This document shows positions 1-10,022 of a DNA stretch of 10,022 nt, in pieces (the first letter of the stretch is position 1; the number at the start of each line of letters is the position of its first letter). Where the stretch lies: positions 1-10,022 of the forward strand of contig JAITHF010000176.1 in the NCBI GenBank assembly GCA_031280115.1. The letters run 5' to 3'. The translations under genes were made by a program, and so were the position numbers. Origin of the DNA: Spirochaetaceae bacterium. Its GTDB lineage: Bacteria; Spirochaetota; Spirochaetia; Treponematales; Breznakiellaceae. Below the pieces are notes generated by a model that saw only the letters and a list, made by a program, of their open reading frames with translations, had not been told where the DNA came from and searched no databases.

Positions 1-119
1 ATGAAGTTGAAGGCCCGGGCAATGACCGGTACGTCTTTGCCGCGGCGCTTGAGACGGACAGGGAGCCGGCGGAGGGCTTGTGGGCGCCGCCGTTTTTACC
101 TATATTTAAATGGCTATGA
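1..119 (+). CDS. C-terminal end of an upstream protein (partial)
   Basis: Reading from position 3, an open frame runs to a TGA at 117-119. It encodes about 38 residues with the start off the left edge: an acidic and aromatic stretch ending in PPFLPIFKWL. Codon choice (GCG, CCG, GAG, GGC) matches the other genes of the window. The TGA shares the ATGA at 116-119 with the start codon of the next gene, the usual sign of two translationally coupled genes in one operon. The fragment is too short to name a family. A competing frame that opens with ATG at base 1 is very arginine-rich and looks like a shadow. Confidence 0.6.
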   Translation, partial: EVEGPGNDRYVFAAALETDREPAEGLWAPPFLPIFKWL

Positions 120-1462
120 TTTCACGACCCTTTTATATAGTATTACGGCTTTACCGGCTCGGCGCGGCGGCGCTCTTCTTGACGGCCCGCGCCGCCCTGC
201 CCCTGCCCGCGCAGGGGCTTGACCTCCCTACCAGACAGATACCGGACGACTCTTCCCTGCGCCTAGCCCTGCGGGACTCATGGTTTACTGAAGCGCCTGA
301 GCGGGTCCTCAGTATGCGCGCTTTTGTGCGGGACCTCAGCGGCGGCGGGAAGGTGCAGGTGCGCGCCGAAGAGGGGAAGGGCGAGTTTATGGTCATTCTG
401 GCCCGGGAGCGGAACGGCGCGTACCCGGGATGGGCGCAGGGTTCATGGATTTTGACCCGAAACAGCGCTGACGGCAGCCCTGCGCGTATCCGGGTCTTCT
501 TGCGGAGCGACCCCTACACCTACATCCAGTTCCGGCCTGTTGCCGCGGACCGGAGCGTGATGGATATGGTGCTGTACAATGCCTATGTCGTGCGCTCCCT
601 GCCTATTCCCTATTCTCTTGAGCGGCTTTTCGTGCTTCCCCTGGAAGAGGCGCTCCTGGCAGCGGCGGGGCGGTTCCCCCGGAAGTATTTTGATCCTGAT
701 CCGGATGCCTACCGGGACCTGCGGGGGTTTATGGCGCTGGTCCGGCAGCGCCTTCCGGCGCTCTCGTTCCATGACGACGGGGCCATAGACGACACGGGGC
801 GGTATGTGTATATCGCAAACCTCCAAGCCCAGGAAGGGGAGGCGGGGCTTAACTGTTCGGGCTTTGCCAAATGGATGGTTGACGGCATCCTGCGCCCCTT
901 TACCGGCAGGCGCCTTGCTATCCCGCCCTTAAAAAAAGCCTTTGGCAATCGGGGTTCTTCGTTTACCGAACCCTATGAAGAGGCGCGGGATCCTTTTTTC
1001 GGCCTTGACTGGACGCGCAACCTTGCGTCAACCGCGCTTTCCGCTATGCTGTCCTCCGGCGATTTCGGGAAACTTGAGGAGATTGAGGTGCAGCGCAGCC
1101 CTTTTTCCTCGTTAATCGCCCGGGATCCGGCAGGCAATTCTATCCGGTCCTATCCGAGTTTCCTGCTGAACGCGGGTTTCAGCATCGAAGGGCTTCAGCC
1201 GCTCCTTTATACCCTTGCCATTGACCGCCCGGGGACCATATACCTTGCGTCAGTGAACAGCGAAGAGGGGGCCGCGCGCCCCCGGATACGCCAGCATTTT
1301 CATGTGGCCGTGCTGGTTCCCTATTTCAACGAGTACGGGGTCTTTCAAACAGCGGTCTTTGAGAGCGCCGAGGAAACCTCGTTTGCCCAGTTCCGGCGCC
1401 GGTATCCGGGGCATTTTGTCAATCTGGTCCGTATCCCCACAGAATCCCGCTTCGACCCCTAA
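116..1462 (+). CDS. Secreted protein of unknown function with an NlpC/P60-like NCSGF motif
   Basis: I do not recognise this 448-residue protein as a named family. Residues 4-33 form a basic, hydrophobic N-terminus (YRLGAAALFLTARAALPL) that looks like a signal peptide, possibly cut near ARA-A, so the protein probably acts in the periplasm or is anchored at the inner membrane. Near residue 246 is NCSGFAKW, which resembles the DCSGF motif holding the catalytic Cys of NlpC/P60 cell-wall peptidases. Near residue 394 is HFHVAVLVPYF, which could hold the partner His. The Cys-His distance, about 147 residues, is roughly twice that of ordinary NlpC/P60 domains, so a large insertion or a different fold is possible. 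I chose ATG 116 because it makes a 4-base ATGA overlap with the upstream gene. ATG 110 would add only Met-Ala, and neither start has a clear ribosome site. The stop codon directly abuts repeat copy A. Coding status is secure; peptidase function is a guess. Confidence 0.85.
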   Translation: MISRPFYIVLRLYRLGAAALFLTARAALPLPAQGLDLPTRQIPDDSSLRLALRDSWFTEAPERVLSMRAFVRDLSGGGKVQVRAEEGKGEFMVILARERNGAYPGWAQGSWILTRNSADGSPARIRVFLRSDPYTYIQFRPVAADRSVMDMVLYNAYVVRSLPIPYSLERLFVLPLEEALLAAAGRFPRKYFDPDPDAYRDLRGFMALVRQRLPALSFHDDGAIDDTGRYVYIANLQAQEGEAGLNCSGFAKWMVDGILRPFTGRRLAIPPLKKAFGNRGSSFTEPYEEARDPFFGLDWTRNLASTALSAMLSSGDFGKLEEIEVQRSPFSSLIARDPAGNSIRSYPSFLLNAGFSIEGLQPLLYTLAIDRPGTIYLASVNSEEGAARPRIRQHFHVAVLVPYFNEYGVFQTAVFESAEETSFAQFRRRYPGHFVNLVRIPTESRFDP

Positions 1463-1588
1463 CCCCCGAAGCGGCGCCTCAGCGGGCTTCGCAGGCGGAA
1501 GGGCGCGAAGCAGGAAGCCTTTAGGGGTGGTTTGGAGGGTCTATGACCCTCCAAATTCTTCCCAAAGAGGCGCGCAGCGCCGATAATT
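1463..1588 (+). repeat. Composite intergenic repeat, copy A
   Basis: The copy begins at the TAA of the preceding gene with the boundary motif AACCCCCGAAG. Its first block, 1464-1485, is identical over 22 bases to 9928-9949 (copy D). The next 50 bases (1486-1535) align to copy D without gaps, with 11 mismatches by my count, and include GGAAGCCTTTAGGGG. A stem-loop follows at 1531-1555, and then an arm, 1564-1588, that reappears inverted at 1703-1728. Compared with copy B it lacks about 47 bases lying between two AAAGAGGCGC direct repeats, so it may be a deleted form. Confidence 0.8.
1531..1555 (+). terminator. Perfect 11-bp stem-loop after the secreted-protein gene
   Basis: The arms TTTGGAGGGTC and GACCCTCCAAA pair perfectly around the loop TAT. 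The hairpin lies about 70 bases after the stop codon and is followed by TTCTTCCC, not by a proper T-tract. It could end transcription or protect the 3' end of the mRNA. It occupies the same place in copy A as the stem-loops of copies B, C and D, but with a different sequence. Confidence 0.5.
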
Positions 1589-1728
1589 CGTTATATAATA
1601 ATGATTTATCTGGGGACAGGATAGTTTATTTTGCTAGCAAGAAAACTTATTTTGCGTGCAAAAAAACCGGTTTTCCTGCCGCGCTCTGTTGGTATATTAA
1701 AAAATTATCGGCGCTTTCGCGCCTCTTT
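1564..1728. repeat. AT-rich 165-bp segment bounded by inverted repeats
   Basis: The left arm (1564-1588, AAAGAGGCGC then GCGCCGATAATT) returns as its reverse complement at 1703-1728. The two differ only in a small central loop, GCA against GAAA. Each arm carries its own mini-hairpin, GGCGC/GCGCC. The 114 bases between are far richer in A and T than the flanking genes. The arms are also the ends of repeat copies A and B, so this segment can be read as the centre of a large inverted repeat, or as a small MITE-like insertion. No transposase and no clear target-site duplication are visible. Confidence 0.6.
1626..1674. repeat. Tandem 21-bp repeat and three palindromes
   Basis: Bases 1626-1646 and 1647-1667 are a direct tandem repeat (TTATTTTGC, two variable bases, GCAA, then an A-rich end) with 3 mismatches in 21. 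Each unit is centred on a palindrome: TTGCTAGCAA at 1631-1640, and TTTTGC-GT-GCAAAA at 1650-1663. A third, perfect palindrome AAAACCGGTTTT follows at 1663-1674. The arrangement looks like repeated protein-binding sites or short hairpins. A 62-residue frame crosses it but appears to be an accident of the repeat. Confidence 0.6.
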
Positions 1729-1890
1729 TAAGAGTTTATGGAGGGCTTTTTTATCTGCGCTTCATGTTTGCGCCTCTTTGTGCGAACTTCCCGTAAGGGA
1801 ACAGCCTTAGGCTGCCCCCAAACCCCCCTAAAGGCTGCCTGCGCCGCGCCCGTGCGCTCTGGCGCTCTGGCGCTCCCCGGCGCTTGGGGT
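1703..1890 (-). repeat. Composite intergenic repeat, copy B, overlapping the 3' end of the RND gene
   Basis: Read on the minus strand, this copy starts with CCCCAAGCG (a degenerate form of the first block), then GCACGGGCGCG, AGCCTTTAGGGG and the stem-loop 1797-1819. A segment shared with copy C at 5153-5197 follows (CATGAAGCG, then AGATAAAAAAGCCC and CCATAAA), and finally the inverted arm 1703-1728. The part from 1828 to 1890 is inside the RND reading frame and supplies its last 20 codons and its stop. A short duplication, GAGCGCCA twice, lies in the same part. Confidence 0.75.
1797..1819 (-). other. Stem-loop of repeat copy B
   Basis: On the minus strand GGGGGCAGCC pairs with GGCTGTTCCC around TAA: ten pairs, two of them G-U in RNA. 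The G-U pairs would be C-A mismatches on the other strand, so the structure favours the transcript that runs out of the RND gene. Its 3' arm can instead form a 5-bp hairpin, TTCCC/GGGAA around TTAC (1788-1801), so the two folds exclude each other. No T-tract follows immediately. Confidence 0.55.
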
Positions 1891-4800
1891 AAACCGGCTG
1901 GGCCGGCCCCTTCCCGCGCCTTTCTCCCGCGGGCTGTTAAGGAGGGAATATACCGCAGGCGTAACCAGCAGGGTCATAAAGAAACTCACTGACAGGCCCC
2001 CTACAAAGGTCTTGCCAATGGGCTGTATCGTGTCCGCCCCGGGGCCGGGAAAAAACGCGATAGGTATCATGCTGATAATCGTAGTGAGGCCGGTCATAAG
2101 GATAGGCCGCAGCCGGCTGCGCCCGGCCTCAAGGCAGGCGTCCCGCACGGACAGCCCCCGGGCCCGCAGGGTGTTGGTGTAGTCAACCAGCACAATGCCG
2201 TTGTTCACCACCACCCCCACCAGCGCCACCACCCCCACGGCGGAAAAGACCGACATGGCCTGATTGCCTATCTTATATATCCATATCACCCCGATAAAGA
2301 GGAGCGGGATAGAAAAGAAGATCACAAGCGGGTCAACAAAGGACTCGAACTGGCTTGCCATAAGGCCGAACACGAGAAACACCGCGGCGCCTATGATAAA
2401 AATAAAGCGCGTGTTATAGGTCTTGATCTCTTGAGCTTCCCCCAAATAGCGCACGGTTACGCCTTCCTGAGGCACCAGATACTGTTTGACCGCTTCTTCA
2501 AGTTTCATCTGGGTTTCGGTCGCCGCGATGCCCCCGGCCAGACTGCCGGTTACCCGCAGGACCCGCTCCTGATTCTCCCGCCTGACCGACATAGGGGCGC
2601 GCCCCTCGCGTATGCGCGTCAGATTTGCAAGGGAAACCCGCTCCCCCCCGCGGCCCGGCACAAAAAGCGCGTCCAGATTGGGCAGCCCTGCCTGATCGCT
2701 CTTTTGCAGGATGACCTGTACGTTGATAATCCGGTCCCCCCGGCTTATAGTAGCGGCGTTGGCGCCGTTGACCGCGGTGCGCACCTCTTCGGCAATGGCC
2801 GAAAGCGAAACCCCCAGGGCCGCGGCCCGGTCCCGGTCAATCTCAATCCGGAGCTGCGGCGCCCCTTCGCTCAGGTTCACCTGCGGGTCCTCGATTTCAG
2901 GCAGGTGCCGGGCCATAATAGCTTTTATCTCATTGGCGGTCTTCATAAGCGCGTCAGCGTCTTTGGAACTCACCGCGATTTCCACTGCCGAGGAAGCGCT
3001 CATGCTCCGGCCCGCCCGGAACGCAACCTGCATACCGGGGATGTTCGAGACGACCGGCGCCAGTTTGCGGATGATAGAGTCAGGCGTGTCAATCTGCTTT
3101 GCCGGCTCAGGGAGGATGATCTGCACCGAGCCCTGGGCCGAGCCGCTCTGCCGCGCCGTGAGCACCAGATCCCGATACCCAAGCACGTTTTCTTTCACTA
3201 TGGTTTCAAGGGCCTCCACCGCCTGCTCCGTAACGGCAAGGGGCGTGCCCTGGGGCAGGGACACGTTGAGCGTGATAGAATCGTCGGTCCTGCTGCGGAA
3301 GAACAGGTTCATCCCGATACCGCTGAACTGGGTCAGGGAGAACGCCAGAATAAGCAGGGTCAGGAGCAGCACAAGCAGCCGGCGGCTCAGGCAGTAATCA
3401 ATGGCCCGCCGGTATGCGTTGTCAAGGCCCTGGAAGAACCTGTCCATCGCCGCGTCAGCAGCCCGCAGGAACGGGAGGCGCAGCGGCTTCTGCCTGTGCG
3501 TGTCAAGGCGCATAATCGAACCTGCAAGGCTCGGCACCAAGGTCAGCGCCACCAGAAGGGAGCAGGCAAGGGAAATCACCACCGTGAAAATCAGGTCGTT
3601 GAAGAACTGCCCCATCATCTCAAGGTCGTTTTTATAGATCAGGAGGGGGACGAACACGCAGAGGGTGGTGGCTGTTGAGGTAACGATAGCCCGCAGCATC
3701 TCCTGGCTGCCCAGAACCGCGGCGGCCTCCGCTTTGGCGCCCCGCAGCCGGTAGGCGTGGACATTGTCCAGAATCACGATCGAGGCGTCGACGGTCATGC
3801 CCAGGCCGAGGATAAGGCCGGTCATGGTGAGCAGGTTAAGGGTAAAGCCGAAGGCCGCCATGCACATAAGGGTCAGCAGAATAGAAACCGGAATAGACAG
3901 CCCCACAATTAACGTGCCTTTCACGTTCCGCAGGAAGATAAACAGCACCGCCATCGCAAGGAGCGCGCCCTGCACCGCGTTGGCGTACACCTGGTTGAGG
4001 GCGGCGCTTATGAGGGTGGTATTGTCTGACAGGACCTGCACCGTAAGCCCCTGGGGAAGGCGCTGGTTAATCCCTTCAAGAGCTTCCCGCACGCGCTTTG
4101 CCGTCCGCACCTGGTTGCTGTCGCTGGCGCCGGTTACTTGCAGGTACACGCCGCTTTCGCCGTTCACCCTGACCCGCGCCGCGTTGTCGTTGTGGGCAAT
4201 CCCCACGTCCGCGACGTCTTCGAGCCGGACAATCTGGGAGCGGTTTGGATTGGCGGCTCCCGCGCCTGCCGGGGACAGGGTTTTAACTACCAGTCTTTTT
4301 ATCTGGGTAATGTCCGCCAGTTCCTGGGCGGTCAGCAGCTGGTACTCCATGTCCCCGCGCCCGAGGCTGCCGCCGCTTGAGAGGATGTTTTGCCCCCGCA
4401 AGGCCGCGCTTATGTCCCGCAGAGTAAGGTTGAGCGCGGCAAGGCGGTTTTGGGAAACCGCCGCGCGGACGAGCTGGGTGGTGCCGCCGGTTACTTCCGC
4501 TGAGGCAACCCCGTCAATCCGCTCGACCTCCGCCTGGATCTCGTCTTCAGCAAAGAGGCGGAGCTGATCTGACGGGTAATTCCCCCGGACCACAAGGCGC
4601 ATGATAGGCGCGGCGGACATATCATAGCGCCGCGCCACCGGCGAAGAGGCGTCGTCAGGGAGGGAGTTGGCAATACGGTTTACCAGCGTTTGGGCGTCGG
4701 TCATGGCTTTATCCATGTCGGTCCCGTAGGCAAAGTTAAGGTTGATAGTGCTGTACTCAAAGTTGGACGTGCTGGTCATATCAACCAGCCCTTTGGAGAC

Positions 4801-5016
4801 CGCAAGGGCCCGTTCAAGCGGGATGGTGATATTCTGTTCCACGTCAGACGGGCCCGCGCCGGCAAGGCGGGTAGACACGGACAGGACCGGGCGGGATATA
4901 GAGGGGTACAGGTCAAGGGCGATATGGGGGACCAGGGTGGCCGCCACGCCCAGGGCAAGGGCGTACAGCACAACCACCGTAACCGGACGCTTCACCGAAT
5001 ACTCAACGATACTCAT
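1828..5016 (-). CDS. RND multidrug efflux transporter, HAE1/AcrB type
   Basis: A complete inner-membrane RND pump of 1062 residues, the usual length for AcrB-type proteins, which use the proton gradient to expel drugs, detergents or lipids through a periplasmic adaptor and an outer-membrane channel. I count 12 membrane segments: near 12-30, six between 347 and 564, and five between 867 and 1026, with the two large periplasmic loops between. In helix 4 the sequence VDASIV keeps the Asp matching AcrB D407 (D410) but has Ala in place of D408. In helix 10 VVNNGIVLVD has Asn (N938) in place of K940. AAGGAG at 5022-5027 lies 5 bases before ATG. TATGAT at 5041-5046 could be a -10 box, but no -35 is visible. 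No adaptor or TolC gene is adjacent. The tail after residue 1042 is encoded by repeat copy B. The substrate cannot be told. Confidence 0.95.
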   Translation of the reverse strand: MSIVEYSVKRPVTVVVLYALALGVAATLVPHIALDLYPSISRPVLSVSTRLAGAGPSDVEQNITIPLERALAVSKGLVDMTSTSNFEYSTINLNFAYGTDMDKAMTDAQTLVNRIANSLPDDASSPVARRYDMSAAPIMRLVVRGNYPSDQLRLFAEDEIQAEVERIDGVASAEVTGGTTQLVRAAVSQNRLAALNLTLRDISAALRGQNILSSGGSLGRGDMEYQLLTAQELADITQIKRLVVKTLSPAGAGAANPNRSQIVRLEDVADVGIAHNDNAARVRVNGESGVYLQVTGASDSNQVRTAKRVREALEGINQRLPQGLTVQVLSDNTTLISAALNQVYANAVQGALLAMAVLFIFLRNVKGTLIVGLSIPVSILLTLMCMAAFGFTLNLLTMTGLILGLGMTVDASIVILDNVHAYRLRGAKAEAAAVLGSQEMLRAIVTSTATTLCVFVPLLIYKNDLEMMGQFFNDLIFTVVISLACSLLVALTLVPSLAGSIMRLDTHRQKPLRLPFLRAADAAMDRFFQGLDNAYRRAIDYCLSRRLLVLLLTLLILAFSLTQFSGIGMNLFFRSRTDDSITLNVSLPQGTPLAVTEQAVEALETIVKENVLGYRDLVLTARQSGSAQGSVQIILPEPAKQIDTPDSIIRKLAPVVSNIPGMQVAFRAGRSMSASSAVEIAVSSKDADALMKTANEIKAIMARHLPEIEDPQVNLSEGAPQLRIEIDRDRAAALGVSLSAIAEEVRTAVNGANAATISRGDRIINVQVILQKSDQAGLPNLDALFVPGRGGERVSLANLTRIREGRAPMSVRRENQERVLRVTGSLAGGIAATETQMKLEEAVKQYLVPQEGVTVRYLGEAQEIKTYNTRFIFIIGAAVFLVFGLMASQFESFVDPLVIFFSIPLLFIGVIWIYKIGNQAMSVFSAVGVVALVGVVVNNGIVLVDYTNTLRARGLSVRDACLEAGRSRLRPILMTGLTTIISMIPIAFFPGPGADTIQPIGKTFVGGLSVSFFMTLLVTPAVYSLLNSPREKGAGRGRPSRFTPSAGERQSARAHGRGAGSL

Positions 5017-5107
5017 ACAAACTCCTTAATAGGTTATGTTATCATATTTTAAGAGCAGGCGCAGACCGCGCACCAGCCCAAAACAAGAAGCCTTTAGGGG
5101 GGGTGTG

Positions 5108-5128
5108 GAGGCAGCCTCCGGCTGTTTC
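5108..5128 (+). other. Stem-loop of repeat copy C
   Basis: GAGGCAGCC pairs with GGCTGTTTC around TCC: nine pairs, including two G-U. Compared with copies B and D, one G-C pair has become A-U (5109 with 5127), a compensated change that keeps the stem. Confidence 0.55.
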
Positions 5129-5245
5129 AGCAGTCGTAGTTTGCAAAAAAGGGCGCGAAGCATGAAGCGTAGATAAAAAAGCCCCCCCATAAAGTCTTCA
5201 AACGCGCAAGCGCAGCGCAGCGCTCATATTCAAACACCACACAAT

Positions 5246-5280
5246 CCCCCGCAGGGGGCGCCTCCGAAGGGGGCCTTCGG
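5246..5280. other. Two adjacent GC-rich hairpins
   Basis: CCCCC-GCA-GGGGG (5246-5258) and CCGAAGG-GGG-CCTTCGG (5264-5280) are perfect short stems with 3-base loops, just before the -35 box of the STAS operon. Neither has a T-tract, so they are not convincing terminators. They may insulate the operon promoter or be part of repeat copy C. Confidence 0.5.
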
Positions 5281-5284
5281 GGGT

Positions 5285-5313
5285 TTGACAAAGGAGGGGA
5301 ATACGCATAAAAT
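5285..5313 (+). promoter_or_regulatory. Sigma70-type promoter of the STAS-YbjN-PspA operon
   Basis: TTGACA (5285-5290, perfect -35) is followed after exactly 17 bases by TAAAAT (5308-5313, 5 of 6 matches to the -10 box). Transcription would start near 5320 and leave a leader of about 29 bases before the STAS start codon. The -35 box begins inside the last bases of repeat copy C, so the repeat ends at, and may help shape, this promoter. The spacer holds AAGGAGGGG, which looks like a ribosome site but has no start codon at a usable distance. Confidence 0.75.
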
Positions 5314-5348
5314 AAAAAGATAATGAAAAGGAATGCGGGCATACGGCT

Positions 5349-5900
5349 ATGTCAAACAATGAAATTGTTCAGGGATTTGATGATGAAAAAGATGCGGCCC
5401 TCACGATAACCCTTGAGAAGGCGCGGGAAGCTGAAGAGATGCTGATTGTCTCTTTAAGCGGCTCAGTTGACCCCCATAACGCGCCGTTTCTTCAAAAACA
5501 GATGGTCAAGGCAATTGAGAAGGGGTATACCAAGCTCATTTTTCACTGCGCGGGCCTTGGGGATATTTCTTCCGCCGGTATCGGCGCCTTTTCACACTTC
5601 CTTAATTTGGTCAAGGCCAAAGGGGGGGATCTGGTGTTTTTCGGTATCCAGCCGAAAGTACAGGGGGTGCTCCAGGTCCTGGGCTTCGCCCAAGTCTTTA
5701 CGACAAGGGAAACCAGAGACGAATCGGCCGGCGTGTTCCGCAGCCCCCCGCCGCCTGCGCCGGACGGGCGCTTTCCTGTAACCGCCGTATGCCCCGCCTG
5801 CTCCCAAACGCACAATGTCATGGAAGCCGGGCGGTTCAACTGCTCCCGCTGTAAAACCGCGCTCATAACCGACCGCCAAGGGCAGGTGTTTCTGGGATAA
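5349..5900 (+). CDS. STAS-domain protein with C-terminal zinc ribbon (anti-sigma-factor-antagonist-like)
   Basis: Residues about 30-120 read as a STAS domain of the SpoIIAA kind, a small cytoplasmic switch that binds anti-sigma kinases or other partners. The diagnostic loop is LGDISSAGIGAF near 70-81; S75 falls where SpoIIAA carries its phosphorylated serine, so control by phosphorylation is possible. A proline-rich linker (PPPPAP, about 133-138) joins it to a compact zinc ribbon with paired cysteines CPAC (148-151) and CSRC (165-168). The N-terminal 20 residues are acidic. The 183-residue length is longer than a bare STAS protein because of the ribbon. It is the first gene of its operon, 33 bases before the YbjN-like gene. 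Ribosome-site support is poor: AAGGA lies about 16 bases upstream, with no better in-frame start. No kinase or phosphatase partner is in the window. Confidence 0.88.
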   Translation: MSNNEIVQGFDDEKDAALTITLEKAREAEEMLIVSLSGSVDPHNAPFLQKQMVKAIEKGYTKLIFHCAGLGDISSAGIGAFSHFLNLVKAKGGDLVFFGIQPKVQGVLQVLGFAQVFTTRETRDESAGVFRSPPPPAPDGRFPVTAVCPACSQTHNVMEAGRFNCSRCKTALITDRQGQVFLG

Positions 5901-5933
5901 CCGCGGGTTTTATGCTAGTATTAAGGATAGGGT

Positions 5934-6311
5934 ATGACAGACAATAAAATCGAACAGTATTTACGGGAGTTAAAGGTCTCCTATCGGGAACTTGAGCCCA
6001 ATCTGTGGCTGGTGGAACCGGAAGGCCAGCCGCAGGTGGCTGTTTTGTACGCAGAACCGCTGGTGGTTATCCGCGCGCTGGTCATGGAAGCGCCCCGTGA
6101 AAACCGGCTTGAGCTTTTTACTAAACTCCTCGCGCTTAACGCCGCGGATATGATCCACGGCGCCTACGGGCTTGAGGGGGATAAAATTGTGCTGATTGAC
6201 AGCTGGGAATACGGCACGCTGGATTTTGAGGAACTGAGAGCCACGATTGAGTCTTTCAGCCTCGCATTAACCCAGCATTATCCGCTATTGTCGGTGTACA
6301 GGGACCGATAG
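5934..6311 (+). CDS. YbjN-domain protein
   Basis: This 125-residue soluble protein resembles the YbjN family, which has a fold related to type III secretion chaperones and is thought to bind other proteins in the cytoplasm. Supporting features are the central AEPLVVIRALVMEAP strand region, a helix with FTKLLALNAADMIHGAYGLE, a strand KIVLIDSW, and the closing helix LRATIESFSLALTQHYPLL. There is no signal peptide or membrane segment. AGGA at 5924-5927 lies 6 bases before ATG. Its TAG is only 12 bases before pspA and overlaps the pspA ribosome site, so the two are probably translated together. E. coli YbjN is somewhat longer and its role is not settled. A job as helper or regulator of PspA or the STAS protein is inference from position. 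Confidence 0.75.
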   Translation: MTDNKIEQYLRELKVSYRELEPNLWLVEPEGQPQVAVLYAEPLVVIRALVMEAPRENRLELFTKLLALNAADMIHGAYGLEGDKIVLIDSWEYGTLDFEELRATIESFSLALTQHYPLLSVYRDR

Positions 6312-6323
6312 GGAGGTTATACA

Positions 6324-7019
6324 ATGGGAATTTTCTCAAGGCTTAGAACACTCATTTCATCAAATGTGAACGACATGATAAGCAAGGCCGAAAAGCCGGA
6401 AAAGATGCTGAACCAGCTTATTATCGACATGAACGAACAGCGTATCGAATCAATGAAAGCCGTGGCAATGGCCATCGCCGACGAAAAAAAGCTGGAGCGG
6501 GAAGTTATGAACCAGCAGGCTATGTCTCAGGAGTGGGAACGGAAAGCCATGCTCGCGGTGCAGGCGGGAAAAGACGACCTTGCGAAAGAAGCGCTTCTCC
6601 GCAAGCAGGAATATGAAAACGCCTGCATGGAATATAAAAAACAGTGGGAAGCCCAAAAGAGCGCGGTGGAAAAACTGAAAGTTTCCCTGCGGGAGCTGCA
6701 AAACAAGATAGAGGAGGCCCAGCGCAAGAAAAACCTCCTTATCGCCCGGGCCAAACGCGCCGAAGCCCAGCAGAAGATTCAGGACACGATCTCATCGGTG
6801 TCCGGCAACCGCAGCGCCTTTGACGCCTTTGACCGGATGGCCGCCAAGGTTGACCAGATGGAAGCCCAGGCTGACGCGGCCCAGGAGCTGGATGACTACT
6901 CGTCCAACTCAAGCCTTGAAAAACAGTTCGCCGAACTTGAGAAGTCCGATACCGCGGCGGATCAGCTGCTCCTTGATCTTAAAGCGAAGATGAAAGCCCT
7001 GCCGGACAAAGAGCTGTAA
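6324..7019 (+). CDS. pspA: PspA/IM30 family membrane-stress protein
   Basis: The 231-residue protein has the PspA/Vipp1 layout. An N-terminal amphipathic helix (MGIFSRLRTLISSNVNDMIS, 1-20) inserts into stressed membrane. Next comes the family hallmark KPEKMLNQLIIDM (24-36), then a long charged coiled coil to about 155, and shorter helices to the C-terminus. PspA proteins polymerise, in an ESCRT-III-like way, on the inner face of the cytoplasmic membrane and limit proton leakage. Length is close to E. coli PspA (222). The start is firm: GGGAGG at 6311-6316, 7 bases before ATG. No pspF, pspB or pspC is nearby, so control must differ from the enterobacterial system. The STAS gene at the head of the operon suggests a partner-switch route, which is inference. 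Confidence 0.95.
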   Translation: MGIFSRLRTLISSNVNDMISKAEKPEKMLNQLIIDMNEQRIESMKAVAMAIADEKKLEREVMNQQAMSQEWERKAMLAVQAGKDDLAKEALLRKQEYENACMEYKKQWEAQKSAVEKLKVSLRELQNKIEEAQRKKNLLIARAKRAEAQQKIQDTISSVSGNRSAFDAFDRMAAKVDQMEAQADAAQELDDYSSNSSLEKQFAELEKSDTAADQLLLDLKAKMKALPDKEL

Positions 7020-7094
7020 GACCCGCAGGCGGCGGCGGGAAGCAGGCGGCCTTGGGGCGGAGAAAGCCCTGCCCCTTGTGAAAGGCGCGCCGTG

Positions 7095-7116
7095 ATAGTA
7101 TGGTAATAGATACTAT
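7095..7116. promoter_or_regulatory. Inverted repeat over a possible promoter
   Basis: ATAGTAT (7095-7101) and ATACTAT (7110-7116) form an inverted repeat with an 8-base spacer, one helical turn apart, like an operator. TTGTGA (7076-7081) and TATGGT (7099-7104), 17 bases apart and each with 4 of 6 matches, could be a weak sigma70 promoter whose -10 box the repeat would cover. GGAAG at 7131-7135 is the ribosome site of the next gene. The rest of the gap (7020-7090) is GC-rich, with only a weak hairpin. Confidence 0.4.
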
Positions 7117-7140
7117 ACAGCATAAAAACTGGAAGAAAAA

Positions 7141-8079
7141 ATGAAACATATAGTACGGTTGATTCTGGTTATCAGTCTCTGTTTCGCGGTGGTGTTTGTA
7201 CTTTCCCTGATACTTAAACTGCTCCAGATTCGCCTTGAGTCAGTGCGGGCCCTGCCGGTTTTCTCACGGCTGAGTCTGGAAGAATGTATCGCCGCGGCCC
7301 GGGGGGCCTTTCCCATTACCATCTATTTTTCCATTCTGTTAAGCGTAAGCTATACGGCGCGGCGGGGCATCCCCGCGCCGGCTGCGATAATGTGCCTTAT
7401 TATTCTGGGCATGAGCGCGTCCCTCCTCATCGCCCTGGGGATAAACGCGCTTGAGCGTATTCCGCCCTCCCCTTCCCCGCCTTTAGGTATACCCCTTGGC
7501 GAGGCGGGGCTTATCTTCTCCCATCCTCCCGATAAAGCGCGGATATTTCTCGAAGACCCCGGCAACCCCCAGGGCGCCCAGGTGGCGGCGGAGCCGGACC
7601 GCCCGCTTCTCTATGAAAAATCCCCCGGGAACGCCGGCGGCCTGGGAACTGCCCAGGGCTTCGGCTTCGCGCCGGCGCTCCTCCAAAGCAATATGTATTT
7701 CTTTTTACAGCGTATATTCAAAGATATTGATCTTGCGGCGGCGCAGTTTACCACACGGTTCAAAGAAGGATTTATGCTTTTCTTCCTCTATATGCTTTCT
7801 CTGGTGTTCCTCCTGAGCTCAGGTCGTTTTCTTATGGACATAAGCGGATGGCCCCTTGCGAACCTGTTCCTGGGTATTCTCGCGTTTCGAGGGGTCCTCG
7901 CGTTGGAACGCGTCCTTAACTCGGAGGGAACATGGACTCTGCTGGTTTCTTTTATGGGAGAGGGCTTTCCCCAATGGGTGTTAAGCCCCCTTGTGTTTGT
8001 TTGCTTAGGGTCAGTGGTTATCCTCTATGCCGCGTTTGCGCGGCTTGGGAAAAGCCGGAGGCTCGATGAAGATTTCTAA
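7141..8079 (+). CDS. Membrane protein, six helices in a 3+3 layout, function unknown
   Basis: I do not recognise this 312-residue protein. Hydrophobic helices are near 5-27, 55-75, 79-103, 209-228, 237-258 and 278-301. The middle part, 104-208, is soluble and probably periplasmic. Its first 70 residues are rich in Pro and Gly (PPSPSPPLGIPL, EDPGNPQGAQ) and look like a flexible, little-conserved loop; the last 25 before helix 4 (FFLQRIFKDIDLAAAQFTTR) look like an amphipathic helix. GGAAG lies 5 bases before ATG. The gene overlaps the next by 14 bases, so the two products are probably made together and may form a complex. The 3+3 arrangement with a paired neighbour recalls LptF/LptG, the permease of lipopolysaccharide export, but the middle domain is short and I see no firm motif. 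Confidence 0.85.
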   Translation: MKHIVRLILVISLCFAVVFVLSLILKLLQIRLESVRALPVFSRLSLEECIAAARGAFPITIYFSILLSVSYTARRGIPAPAAIMCLIILGMSASLLIALGINALERIPPSPSPPLGIPLGEAGLIFSHPPDKARIFLEDPGNPQGAQVAAEPDRPLLYEKSPGNAGGLGTAQGFGFAPALLQSNMYFFLQRIFKDIDLAAAQFTTRFKEGFMLFFLYMLSLVFLLSSGRFLMDISGWPLANLFLGILAFRGVLALERVLNSEGTWTLLVSFMGEGFPQWVLSPLVFVCLGSVVILYAAFARLGKSRRLDEDF

Positions 8080-9868
8080 AAAGATGTTCCTGTCCCCGGC
8101 GGGGCTGTTTGTTATCTATATGGTGCTGTCCTTTCTGGCCGTTATGGGATTCCGCATGCTCTTCCCCGGGGAGCCGGCGCCGCTTGCGTCTCACGGGAAA
8201 TCATGGCGGCTTATCCAGGGGGTTATTGCGTTTATCACCCTGTTTCCCGCGCTGACTATGGCGGGGCTGGTCCTGCCCTTCGGCCTAAAGACCCAGAAGT
8301 GCGGGGAATTCGACCGGTTTTCCGAAGCGTTTCTCGATCAGGTGAAGCCGTCGGTCTTCGCGGCCATCGGCGCTGCCGCCTGCTACGGGCTGCTGTTCTT
8401 TCTGGTATTCCCCCTTGTCCAAAGTCAGGAAACCACCCTGCGCTCCGAGGGGCGCCTCTTTACCGCCTCAAAAGCAAAAGCCCTGGCAAGCGCGGAAAAA
8501 GGCGCGTGGCTGGAAGCGGCCCAGTTCATTGCTGTCTGCGACCAGATATGGCCGGACAGTCCGGAAATCGAATCCCTGAGAGCCGACGCGCTTATGGGCA
8601 TAGAGGCGTGGCGGATTTCCCAAGCCAACGCCCAAATGGAAGCATGGGTGAAAGGGGATATGTATCAGGACATGATGGCCGCCTATTCCAGACTTGAGGG
8701 GAAAGAACAGCCGGTCAACGCGGCGGCGGCCCTGGCCCTGGCGGATAAAGCGATGCAGGCGGAACGGTACTTTGACGCCCATTGGCTTGCGAACCTGGGG
8801 GAACAGCTCGCAGGGCGGGGGAGTCAGGAGCGCCGTGCCGGAAAGGAGCTTGCAAACCATGCCTGGGACGCGGTAACCAGTTTGAAACCGAACACCAGAG
8901 AACAGCGCGCCTATGATTTGTACCGCAAAAAACGGGAAGGCTACGAGGCGATGATGGGGGAAAACTGGATTAAAGCCTACTATATTTTCAAAGAGCTCGC
9001 CGTGGAAACCCCCGGCGATCCAGATGCGGACCGCTTTCTTGCCATAAGCGAAAGAGGCGCCAAAACCAAAGCCTTTTTTATTGATGAGATAGAGCTGACC
9101 TTAGGGGAAATCCTTTCAAGCGCGCTCTTTTCTTTTCCCCTGGAGCTTGCGGAAGGAAATAAGAAAGGCCGCATGGTGCTGCGTTTCGGCTCCCTCTCAA
9201 CGGCGCCAAACTTTTCCTACGGTATAGACCTGGAGCTTATGGCGTTTGACGCAAGCGGAACTTTGCTCTACCAGATGCAGGCGCCCTATGTAAAGATAAT
9301 CCCCCTTGAGCGGGAAGGGGAGGGCCCCCGGCTTATATGTATGTTTAAGGCTCTGGACCGGCTTGACGAAACCAAACACCATGAGCCCCTGTGGCAAGGG
9401 CCCGCGCCGCCTGCGGTGCGGAACGATATGTTCGCCATTAACCTTGCCTATGATGATTTTCTGGTGCTCGCCCGCCTGGGCTGGGGGCTTGAGCCTATTC
9501 TCATCGGGGATCTTATGGGAATGGCCAAACGTATCGGCGCCTACGGGTATATTCCAGAGCTTTTTCAGGCGGAAATCCTTAACCGCTTTTCAGAGGCGGC
9601 GTTTTTCCTGCCCATGTCTATACTAATTATTGTGATAGGCTGGCGGTATCGGTCTAAAAAGATCAGCCTGCAAGTGGGTATTCCTATGCTGGTCGTTTTG
9701 CCGCTCATATTTAACAGCGTGGTATTCCTCTGCCGGAGTATGCTCCACAGCCTCAGTGTCTGGTCAGTTATCTTCTTGAAATTTTCCACTGCCATCGCGG
9801 TCTTCACCATAGGGACCGTTGTCTTCCTGATCTTAACGCTCATCCTCCTCGCCGCCCAGAAAGCCTAA
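8066..9868 (+). CDS. Large membrane protein with TPR-like helical and beta periplasmic region, 3+3 helices
   Basis: A 600-residue inner-membrane protein that I cannot name. Three helices lie at the N-terminus (about 11-31, 50-73, 97-117) and three at the C-terminus (about 510-528, 534-556, 562-596). Between them, residues about 125-330 are helical, with repeat-like pieces resembling TPRs (for example AEKGAWLEAAQFIAVCDQIWP, shown in part, and GENWIKAYYIFKELAVETPG). Residues about 336-430 look beta-rich. The stretch 480-528 (LIGDLMGMAKRIGAYGYIP, then EILNRFSEAAFFLP before helix 4) has the feel of the LptF/LptG segment before its fourth helix. I start at ATG 8066, with GGAGG at 8057-8061; an upstream ATG at 8027 would add 13 residues rich in Arg and Gly and has no ribosome site. 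The start overlaps the preceding gene by 14 bases. The stop is part of a hairpin. Confidence 0.85.
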   Translation: MKISKKMFLSPAGLFVIYMVLSFLAVMGFRMLFPGEPAPLASHGKSWRLIQGVIAFITLFPALTMAGLVLPFGLKTQKCGEFDRFSEAFLDQVKPSVFAAIGAAACYGLLFFLVFPLVQSQETTLRSEGRLFTASKAKALASAEKGAWLEAAQFIAVCDQIWPDSPEIESLRADALMGIEAWRISQANAQMEAWVKGDMYQDMMAAYSRLEGKEQPVNAAAALALADKAMQAERYFDAHWLANLGEQLAGRGSQERRAGKELANHAWDAVTSLKPNTREQRAYDLYRKKREGYEAMMGENWIKAYYIFKELAVETPGDPDADRFLAISERGAKTKAFFIDEIELTLGEILSSALFSFPLELAEGNKKGRMVLRFGSLSTAPNFSYGIDLELMAFDASGTLLYQMQAPYVKIIPLEREGEGPRLICMFKALDRLDETKHHEPLWQGPAPPAVRNDMFAINLAYDDFLVLARLGWGLEPILIGDLMGMAKRIGAYGYIPELFQAEILNRFSEAAFFLPMSILIIVIGWRYRSKKISLQVGIPMLVVLPLIFNSVVFLCRSMLHSLSVWSVIFLKFSTAIAVFTIGTVVFLILTLILLAAQKA

Positions 9869-9884
9869 CCCCCGAAGGGGGGTT
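9867..9884 (+). terminator. Hairpin overlapping a stop codon
   Basis: AACCCCC (9867-9873) pairs with GGGGGTT (9878-9884) around GAAG. The stem includes the last two bases of the TAA stop codon. There are only two T's after the stem, so it may be a weak terminator or an mRNA end protector. The left arm is the same AACCCCCGAAG motif that opens repeat copy A. Confidence 0.4.
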
Positions 9885-9925
9885 CACGTGCTTCTTGCAG
9901 CGATAGGGTTTGCAATTTTAGTCAC

Positions 9926-10022
9926 AACCCCGAAGCGGCGCCTCAGCGGAATTCGATAACGCACGGGCGCGACGCAGGAAGCTTTTAGGGGAGGTTTGGG
10001 GGCAGCCGAAGGCTGTTCCCTT
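9926..10022 (+). repeat. Composite intergenic repeat, copy D (cut by the window end)
   Basis: The copy opens with AACCCCGAAGCGG. The block 9928-9949 is identical to 1464-1485 in copy A, and the following 50 bases match copy A without gaps. GCACGGGCGCG and GCAGGAAGC-TTTTAGGGG are shared with copy B. The stem-loop GGGGGCAGCC-GAA-GGCTGTTCCC lies at 9998-10020, and the window ends two bases later. The 41 bases between the hairpin at 9884 and this copy hold nothing I recognise. Confidence 0.8.

Follow-up and report, generated by a model that had tools for sequence, protein, structure and literature searches.

Mirrored, hairpin-rich intergenic elements with central 21-bp arrays: a probable REP-type family in a spirochaete genome

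The stretch of DNA analysed here (the window, 10,022 bp) is the entire contig C58 of a draft genome, probably that of an uncultured spirochaete from the termite gut, most likely of the Treponematales, family Breznakiellaceae. This genome, named G000 in the following, comprises 1,844,453 bases in 301 contigs and is 62% complete. The window encodes an AcrB-type resistance-nodulation-division (RND) pump, a STAS protein, a YbjN/CesT-like protein, PspA and further predicted proteins without a Pfam match, and it carries four copies, A to D, of a structured repeat, all of which exist at the places given in an earlier note on this sequence, apart from the start of copy D. The repeat belongs to a family which is present in high copy number, is mostly intergenic and is composed of modules in a largely fixed, mirrored order around exact 21-bp tandem arrays; the composite in the window folds back on itself.

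Positions 1463-1890 form a single composite consisting of arm A (modules 2, 3, 4 and hp), head h2, two 21-bp units, tail h1 and the inverted arm B (hp, 62-mer/S, 3 and a degenerate 2). Copies A and B had been regarded as separate elements, but are two inverted arms joined by the head, the array and the tail. The central array, the most unusual part, was missing from the earlier description. Copy D does not start at 9926 but at 9869 (CCCCCGAAGGGGGG), right after a stop codon, and its module 1 then spans 9888-9931; as the window is a whole contig, this copy is cut off by the contig end. Copy C sits in a divergent spacer, as had been reported. The gap-free alignment of A and D was confirmed over 75 bases (1464-1538 and 9928-10002, 84% identity). 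B is complementary to D in two stretches, of 42 nt (86%) and 34 nt (94%), and to C in one of 30 nt (90%). Folded as a single DNA strand with DNA parameters, the composite reached -122.8 kcal/mol compared to a shuffled mean of -73.4 (z -10.15), and none of 100 shuffles was as low. Copy C folded no better than its shuffles (z -1.23, 25 of 200 at least as stable).

Table 1. Features of the window and positions of the second-class arrays at other loci.
Feature	Position	Strand	Remarks
450-aa protein	110-1462		no Pfam match
Arm A module 2	1464-1498	+	CCCCGAAGCGGCGCCTCAGCGG...; begins one base past the stop codon of gene 110-1462
Arm A module 3	1503-1527	+	GCGCGAAGCAGGAAGCCTTTAGGGG
Arm A module 4	1531-1555	+	perfect hairpin TTTGGAGGGTC-TAT-GACCCTCCAAA, short-loop form
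Arm A module hp	1564-1587	+	AAAGAGGCGCGCAGCGCCGATAAT
Head h2	1588-1624	+	TCGTTATATAATAATGATTTATCTGGGGACAGGATAG, bearing the GGGGACAG tag
Core tandem array	1625-1674	.	two 21-bp units (period 21, 2.0 copies); dyads TTGCTAGCAA and TTTGCGTGCAAA, the latter imperfect mid-way
Tail h1	1665-1703	-	minus-strand reading ACCAACAGAGCGCGGCAGGAAAACCGGTT, plus AT-rich continuation
Arm B module hp	1704-1728	-	inverted partner of 1564-1587
Arm B long-loop module 4	1740-1814	-	62-mer type insert and S (CATGAAGCGCAGATAAAAAAGCCC, 1743-1766)
Arm B modules 3 and degenerate 2	1815-1890	-	overlaps the end of the RND gene
RND pump, AcrB type	1828-5016	-	PF00873
Copy C	5068-5286	+	partial element without array, divergent spacer; module 3 (AAGAAGCCTTTAGGGG, 5085-5100), 62-mer/S module, more hairpins including CCCCCGCAGGGGG (5246-5258)
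312-aa predicted protein	7141-8079		no Pfam match
600-aa predicted protein	8066-9868		no Pfam match
Copy D module 0 type hairpin	9869-9882	+	CCCCCGAAGGGGGG; immediately past the stop codon 9866-9868
Copy D module 1	9888-9931	+	GTGCTTCTTGCAGCGATAGGGTTTGCAATTTTAGTCACAACCCC
Copy D modules 2 and 3, beginning of 62-mer type loop	9928-10022	+	ended by the contig end
Second-class array	L180:7100-7439
Second-class array	L182:6101-6351
Second-class array	L166:7813-7975
Second-class array	L175:13168-13257

Arm B contains the end of the RND pump gene (1828-1890), namely about 20 last codons and the stop, which is the TAG within the TTTAGGGG of this arm. The Pfam domain of the pump stops at residue 1026 of 1062. 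The gene at 7141 is placed after the PspA gene also in the relative G003 (L289).

The earlier note had proposed that small, non-coding, structured elements similar to REPs (repetitive extragenic palindromic sequences) form a family across the genome, and this was borne out. Far from being confined to the window, the blocks recur throughout G000: GAAGCCTTTAGGGG has 47 exact copies (30 forward, 17 reverse) compared to none for the reversed pattern, and the array-head sequence GGGGACAGGATAGTTTATTTTG gave 94 matches at up to three mismatches compared to none in the control. Nine module patterns were then counted in two sets of contigs. A systematic sample, for which every 15th contig was drawn (20 contigs, of which 5 were masked and 15, with 89 kb, were counted), yielded 86 matches compared to 2 in the reversed sequence, from which about 1,800 module copies are extrapolated for the assembly. 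A larger set of 52 unmasked contigs (410 kb), of which 37 were the window or had been picked for matches or a RAYT gene (REP-associated tyrosine transposase), yielded 550 matches compared to 10, and 11 of these matches were located within predicted genes. The elements are therefore short, palindromic, extragenic and of high copy number, as are REPs, bacterial interspersed mosaic elements (BIMEs) and REP doublets forming hairpins (REPINs). Of 104 contig ends, 45 have a module at a distance of no more than 400 bp, and so do 11 of 30 in the systematic sample. The draft assembly thus probably stops at the elements, so that the copy numbers are lower bounds and the number of elements is probably underestimated.

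Among 96 relatives, GAAGCCTTTAGGGG matched once each in four, which is background, since the reversed control matched once each in three. A 14-mer scan of a wider contig collection returned at least 110 stretches from unrelated phyla, with one match each among the matches listed.

Starting at the edge of a gene and moving into the spacer, one usually meets modules 0 (CCCCCTGCGGGGG), 1 (GGGTTTGCAATTTTAGTCACAACCC), 2 (GGCGCCTCAGCGGAATTCG), 3 (GCGCAGGAAGCCTTTAGGGG), 4 (GGAGGGTCTATGACCCTCC) or a 62-mer paired with S (GCCGATAAAAAAGCCC), hp (AAAGAGGCGCGAAGCGCCGATAA), head h2 or h1, the array and then the mirror image. In the 39 spacers holding at least two modules (37 contigs), the ratio of inward to outward orientation was 31:3 for module 0, 35:6 for 1, 7:0 for 1b, 46:7 for 2, 27:5 for 3, 22:2 for 4, 16:5 for the 62-mer, 24:6 for S, 23:6 for hp, 22:7 for h2, 14:3 for h1, 8:5 for h3 and 3:1 for h4; for spacers with any module in the 52 contigs it was 253:52. 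Spacers bearing a composite are 0.3 to 2.4 kb long. Many spacers contain a single arm, and some contain several arrays linked by the connecting end h3. The loops of module 4, examined in 82 matched copies, were short in 23, of the 62/S insert type in 11 and of another type in 5, and 43 copies had no recognized closure; many of these, among the matches listed, bear GGGGGAACTGGTTCCCCC or a 62-mer type loop. In the short-loop stem, one base pair varies: about 26 copies have T-A and about 6 G-C, while in about 9 the two bases do not pair (counts from the 82 matches of a self-complementary pattern, both strands included).

A preference for gene 3′ ends on the strand of the gene, which had been suggested from the window, was not supported by the strand counts of the 15-mer GGAAGCCTTTAGGGG (77 matches at up to two mismatches, 37 contigs). 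In tandem spacers 11 matches were on the same strand and 13 on the opposite one, in divergent spacers all 16 were opposite to the nearer gene, and in convergent spacers five of six were on its strand; the remainder comprises 29 matches at the ends of contigs and 2 inside predicted genes. A single rule fits these counts: most modules are directed from the edge of the gene towards the interior of the spacer, and in all three kinds of spacer the strand relative to the gene follows from this rule. Placement is hence non-random, as had been expected, but governed by inward pointing and not by gene ends. Of the spacers of at least 150 bp in the 52 contigs, 47 of 92 hold a module (convergent 10/14, divergent 14/27, tandem 23/51). 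Convergent spacers may be somewhat richer, yet the element is not limited to gene ends. That it fills almost every long spacer is true for the window, but not for the systematic sample, in which 6 of 16 spacers of at least 150 bp hold a module.

The arrays at the centre of the composites comprise two units in the window and up to about 28 elsewhere. Tandem Repeats Finder detected 43 arrays with a period of 20-22 or multiples thereof in the first 21 contigs, 37 of them outside predicted genes and many bordered by common heads and tails. In the systematic sample, the 21-bp family accounts for 11 of 22 non-coding arrays (12.3 per 100 kb). The period is exact: in 100.6 kb of non-coding DNA of G000, the 8-mer recurrence spectrum showed 46.9, 35.1 and 24.9 per kb at lags 21, 42 and 63, compared to 0.3 at lag 20, 0.8 at lag 22 and 0.17 for the median lag. 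The systematic sample gave 18.2, 16.7 and 8.9 at the three peaks and 0.0 and 0.2 at lags 20 and 22. With tandem units of a length between 10 and 60 bp, the arrays have the structure of minisatellites. The unit sequence varies from locus to locus, and many units have a common frame, TTTGNNNNCAAA plus AAACTTATT. A second array class has units around TGACTCA (e.g., TTGACTCAAATACAGCGTCGG), an own head containing ATGCTTGAATATA and likewise a period of 21 (Table 1).

A period divisible by three would also be expected if the arrays encoded heptapeptide repeats, and of the 50 arrays with a length of 100 bp or more, 47 indeed have at least one open frame. Several open frames, as present in most arrays, are nevertheless the chance expectation for a 21-bp repeat, and arrays of 270, 323 and 594 bp, the last being the longest, lack an open frame in each of the six. 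Mismatches between neighbouring units are mostly free of codon-phase bias; in a few arrays, they fall mainly in one phase (1/15/2 in L182 966-1196, 0/7/0 in L221 4083-4292). Coding for heptapeptides is therefore very improbable and was rejected for the class, as three long arrays are frame-less and a general phase is missing. As a class, the arrays are taken as non-coding.

A dyad is located five bases past the head. The arms of this 12-mer are complementary in 0.77, 0.80, 0.80, 0.72 and 0.72 of the cells for units 1 to 5 (about 45, 38, 32, 31 and 27 arrays; four arm pairs), whereas the remaining registers with data gave 0.10 to 0.60. The arms covary: among 57 distinct 12-mers, complementarity was 0.754, whereas 1000 column shuffles averaged 0.628 and did not exceed 0.684, a control which leaves the relatedness among arrays in place. 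Tested singly by unit-wise shuffling, only 14 of 68 arrays showed the dyad at P<0.05, where the coding filter was weak and some of the 68 may be coding. The dyad is thus a feature of the main class and not of every array.

Since 21 bp correspond to two turns of B-DNA, all dyads of an array would face one side, and the arrays might be held in register as helically phased binding sites of a dimeric or filament-forming protein, e.g., for nucleoid organization, with the outer hairpins acting as insulators or being remnants. The exact period, with lags 20 and 22 nearly empty, and a dyad at one register whose arms covary beyond column shuffles would fit such a protein. It is rather unlikely all the same, as the palindromes vary among loci, which a single protein would not tolerate, as just 14 of the 68 arrays have a significant dyad and as units of 22 bases occur (L181).

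Both the dyads and the foldback of the composite, the latter computed with DNA parameters, might alternatively indicate a transcribed structured RNA, in which ladders of hairpins stop transcription or protect mRNA ends. In the array dyads, read on the head-forward strand, G.T exceeded A.C at 16 of 32 heads, the reverse was seen at 7, and 9 had equal numbers or neither. This split of 16:7 is too small to decide, and one array was counted from both ends. The elements also occur between divergent genes, in 14 of 27 such spacers, and copy C folds no better than its shuffles, 25 of 200 being at least as stable. A search of the window against Rfam 15 returned no match above threshold, and Rfam families were rejected, as the only candidate, PhotoRC-I (E 0.54), scored 18.3 bits with a cut-off of 45. 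Overall, regulators of this kind appear improbable.

Five relatives of the same genus (G001 to G005) were sampled, with gene models trained on small samples and masked contigs excluded (5/20 in the own systematic sample, 1/7 in G001, 2/20 in the family sample). Three of the five show the 21-bp peak in non-coding DNA, mostly with other sequences; at lags 21, 42 and 63 the values per kb were 11.8, 17.9 and 16.3 in G001, 11.1, 8.1 and 7.1 in G003, and 4.8, 8.7 and 4.9 in G004. The samples of G002 and G005 (42 and 114 kb) showed no such peak (0.1 at lag 21), but G005 nevertheless has a 21-bp array at one contig end (L195) and five such arrays within predicted genes. Judged by eye, the units of G001 and G004 have no visible relation to those of G000. 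The own element family is itself present on some contigs of G003 and G005, so that part of the G003 peak is shared sequence or possibly due to stray contigs; G003 carries another array type as well, once on the same contig as the own type (L185). A BLAST search with 127 bases of arm A matched 3 of 58 genomes, namely G000, G003 and G005. In other genera of the family, lag 21 reached 2.0 from few arrays, and this weaker peak is accompanied by lags 14, 28, 35, 49 and 56, perhaps from a heptanucleotide array. At the locus orthologous to the STAS gene, the upstream neighbour is not conserved in the relatives compared, and the G003 ortholog is located at a contig end.

These data also bear on the possibility that the elements are ordinary minisatellites together with decayed inverted duplications, which have no dedicated transposase and have inherited their period through recombination from one ancestral array. 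Duplication of whole units would account for the homogeneity within arrays, and many units have a frame in common. We consider this quite unlikely, since arrays with no visible relation in sequence have the same period in G001, G003 and G004, and since heads and tails recur at the array ends within a largely fixed module order. None of the models offered here explains why the period is exactly 21 bp in unrelated units.

A candidate for a dedicated enzyme is encoded in G000. Matches to PF01797 were found once each in G000 and G003, 8 times in G001, 16 times in G004, 11 times in G005 and not in G002. The ORF (open reading frame) of G000 (G000:C283:9508-9948, L208; 147 aa) runs off the contig end and scores 99.5 bits for NCBIfam NF047646 (cut-off 80), which identifies it as RAYT-like; G005 reached 81.4, and G003, with 66.1, is under the cut-off. 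The NCBIfam label REP-associated tyrosine transposase applies to this ORF and to one ORF each of G001, G004 and G005. In G000, G003 and G005, the three genomes which were matched by arm A, the motif GGGACAG precedes the RAYT ORF by 73, 10 and 32 bases, respectively. The link between element and RAYT, which we infer, rests on this shared tag.

Further tags were found close to RAYT genes of the relatives. At up to two mismatches, GGGGACAGAGCAAAT has 18 matches in G003, of which 7 are located on the 16.7-kb RAYT contig, some as inverted pairs resembling REPINs. Compared to a reversed control, its matches amount to 12:4 in G000, 4:1 in G001, 7:1 in G002, 18:2 in G003, 6:0 in G004 and 13:3 in G005, and to 0:2, 4:4, 5:6, 15:4 and 18:4 in G010, G013, G031, G032 and G042. 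In G001, GTGTCTGACACC and TGTCTGGCAC adjoin the RAYT gene at the one locus examined, array units of 63 bp (3 x 21) contain TGTCTGGCAC, and GTCTGGCACTGAAAA at up to one mismatch has 11 matches compared to at most one in each of nine other genomes. Tandem arrays of G003 with a RAYT-linked tag in the unit (GGGGACAGAGCAAGGCGCGT) have a spacing of about 20 to 24 bases (L310, G003:C62:1-280; L311, G003:C78:60-360). In two lineages, array edges or the units themselves thus carry the sequence present beside the local RAYT gene, which is the best, though correlative, evidence for a REPIN-like system.

The explanation we favour is a genome-wide, non-autonomous, hairpin-rich mosaic family which works like REPIN or BIME DNA and is tied to the resident RAYT; in our judgement, it has an even chance of being correct. 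The hairpins would be recognized in single-stranded form by a RAYT-type Y1 transposase, either the resident one or a relative since lost, which would have distributed the GGGGACAG-tagged core. The nested mirror grammar might have arisen through repeated insertion at or within hairpin loops already present, or through loop replacement, while the core array would have expanded by duplication of whole 21-bp units. The unit sequence may then have been replaced locus by locus with the period and, in the main class, the dyad being retained. Elements would pile up in spacers because selection removes insertions elsewhere, and ending genes or supplying stop codons would be a side effect. The elements are probably selfish DNA of the REP type. 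A phage origin is unsupported, as no exact head was found in viral contigs and no phage record resembled 1463-1890.

Several observations weigh against the favoured explanation. It gives no reason for a period of exactly 21. The 3′ flank of the own RAYT gene is absent from the assembly, and within 800 bases 3′ of the RAYT genes of G003 and G005 no GGGACAG was found. The comparison of RAYT flanks covers a single locus per genome in five genomes, while G001, G004 and G005 have 8, 16 and 11 matches. G002 does not fit a strict link, as it has 7 tags of the G003 type compared to 1 in the control but no RAYT match. Head h2 and the RAYT flanks have the tag in common and then diverge (GATAGTTT in place of AGCAAAT), and the single G005 copy examined has the head AGAAGCAGGATAG without GGGACAG. 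The GT(A/G)G head, which REPs of the first RAYT class carry according to the available text of PMC2817692, is absent from the element heads, which carry GGGGACAGGATAG; the elements were accordingly not filed in this class. The co-occurrence of RAYT and element could also be caused by shared descent. In the systematic sample, which is small, the bias towards inward orientation is weaker (21:10), and the module order is not kept in several spacers (e.g., L166, L168, L220, L226). Finally, an empty site was sought and none was found.

Among known systems, REPs, BIMEs and REPINs come close, being high-copy short extragenic palindromes with inverted doublets, hairpin-forming spacers and tandem clusters, which are inserted into or beside existing ones in genomes with a RAYT gene, as described in the available parts of PMC3116915 and PMC2817692. 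In such systems, two inverted copies of the REP flank the RAYT gene; here a 5′ tag was found in G000, G003 and G005 and no GGGACAG within 800 bases 3′ in G003 and G005, and in G003 the RAYT contig holds the seven tags given above. In contrast to these systems, the heads here lack GT(A/G)G, the spacers of 0.3 to 2.4 kb combine numerous types of module in an ordered arrangement that is mirrored around a centre, and this centre is an exact 21-bp array whose sequence changes among loci.

In NIMEs, a short inverted repeat bounds many unrelated repeat sequences. NIMEs and dRS3 of Neisseria are similar to the present elements in that a mosaic of differing repeat modules fills the spacers, whereas a largely fixed order, mirror symmetry and a tandem core are found here. 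The LIMPs of algal mitochondria are intergenic, internally repetitive palindromes, some within other repeats (available parts of PMC4524435). Their repeat units form the stem, while here a 21-bp tandem core is present, in the main class with a dyad in each unit; the type of genome differs as well. Long inverted arms, many copies and no evident coding capacity are shared with miniature inverted-repeat transposable elements (MITEs) and foldback elements, but modular arms and a central tandem array are not, and no target duplication or parent transposon was demonstrated, the transposase search being limited to PF01797. The resemblance to CRISPR is superficial and consists in short palindromic tandem repeats, as the 21-mers abut directly in the arrays examined and leave no unique spacers; cas genes were not searched for.

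In the titles and abstract openings returned by searches of the open-licence literature, no description of such elements was found. The portions compared of the REP and palindrome papers, which include two REP surveys touching Spirochaetes (PMC3733652, PMC12306157), contain neither exact 21-bp arrays nor a mirrored module grammar, and a word search in the accessible text of a paper on Breznakiellaceae genomes (PMC13067680) gave no mention of intergenic or palindromic sequence.

A tentative and, at present, doubtful extension is that the clade as a whole possesses intergenic arrays with a free unit sequence and a period fixed at 21 bp, i.e., two helical turns, in which the dyad of the main class is kept by covariation and which form the centre of a mirrored composite. 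If this were true, the cells would read helical phase and hairpin shape, not sequence, and the reader would be either a Y1/RAYT-type enzyme with the array itself as its product or an unknown structure-reading DNA-binding system. How REP-type DNA manages to spread, and why it is tolerated by bacteria, are questions still to be answered. With their readable grammar, and with relatives in which other sequences have the same period, these elements would offer a natural series on which the role of RAYT and of the period may be studied.

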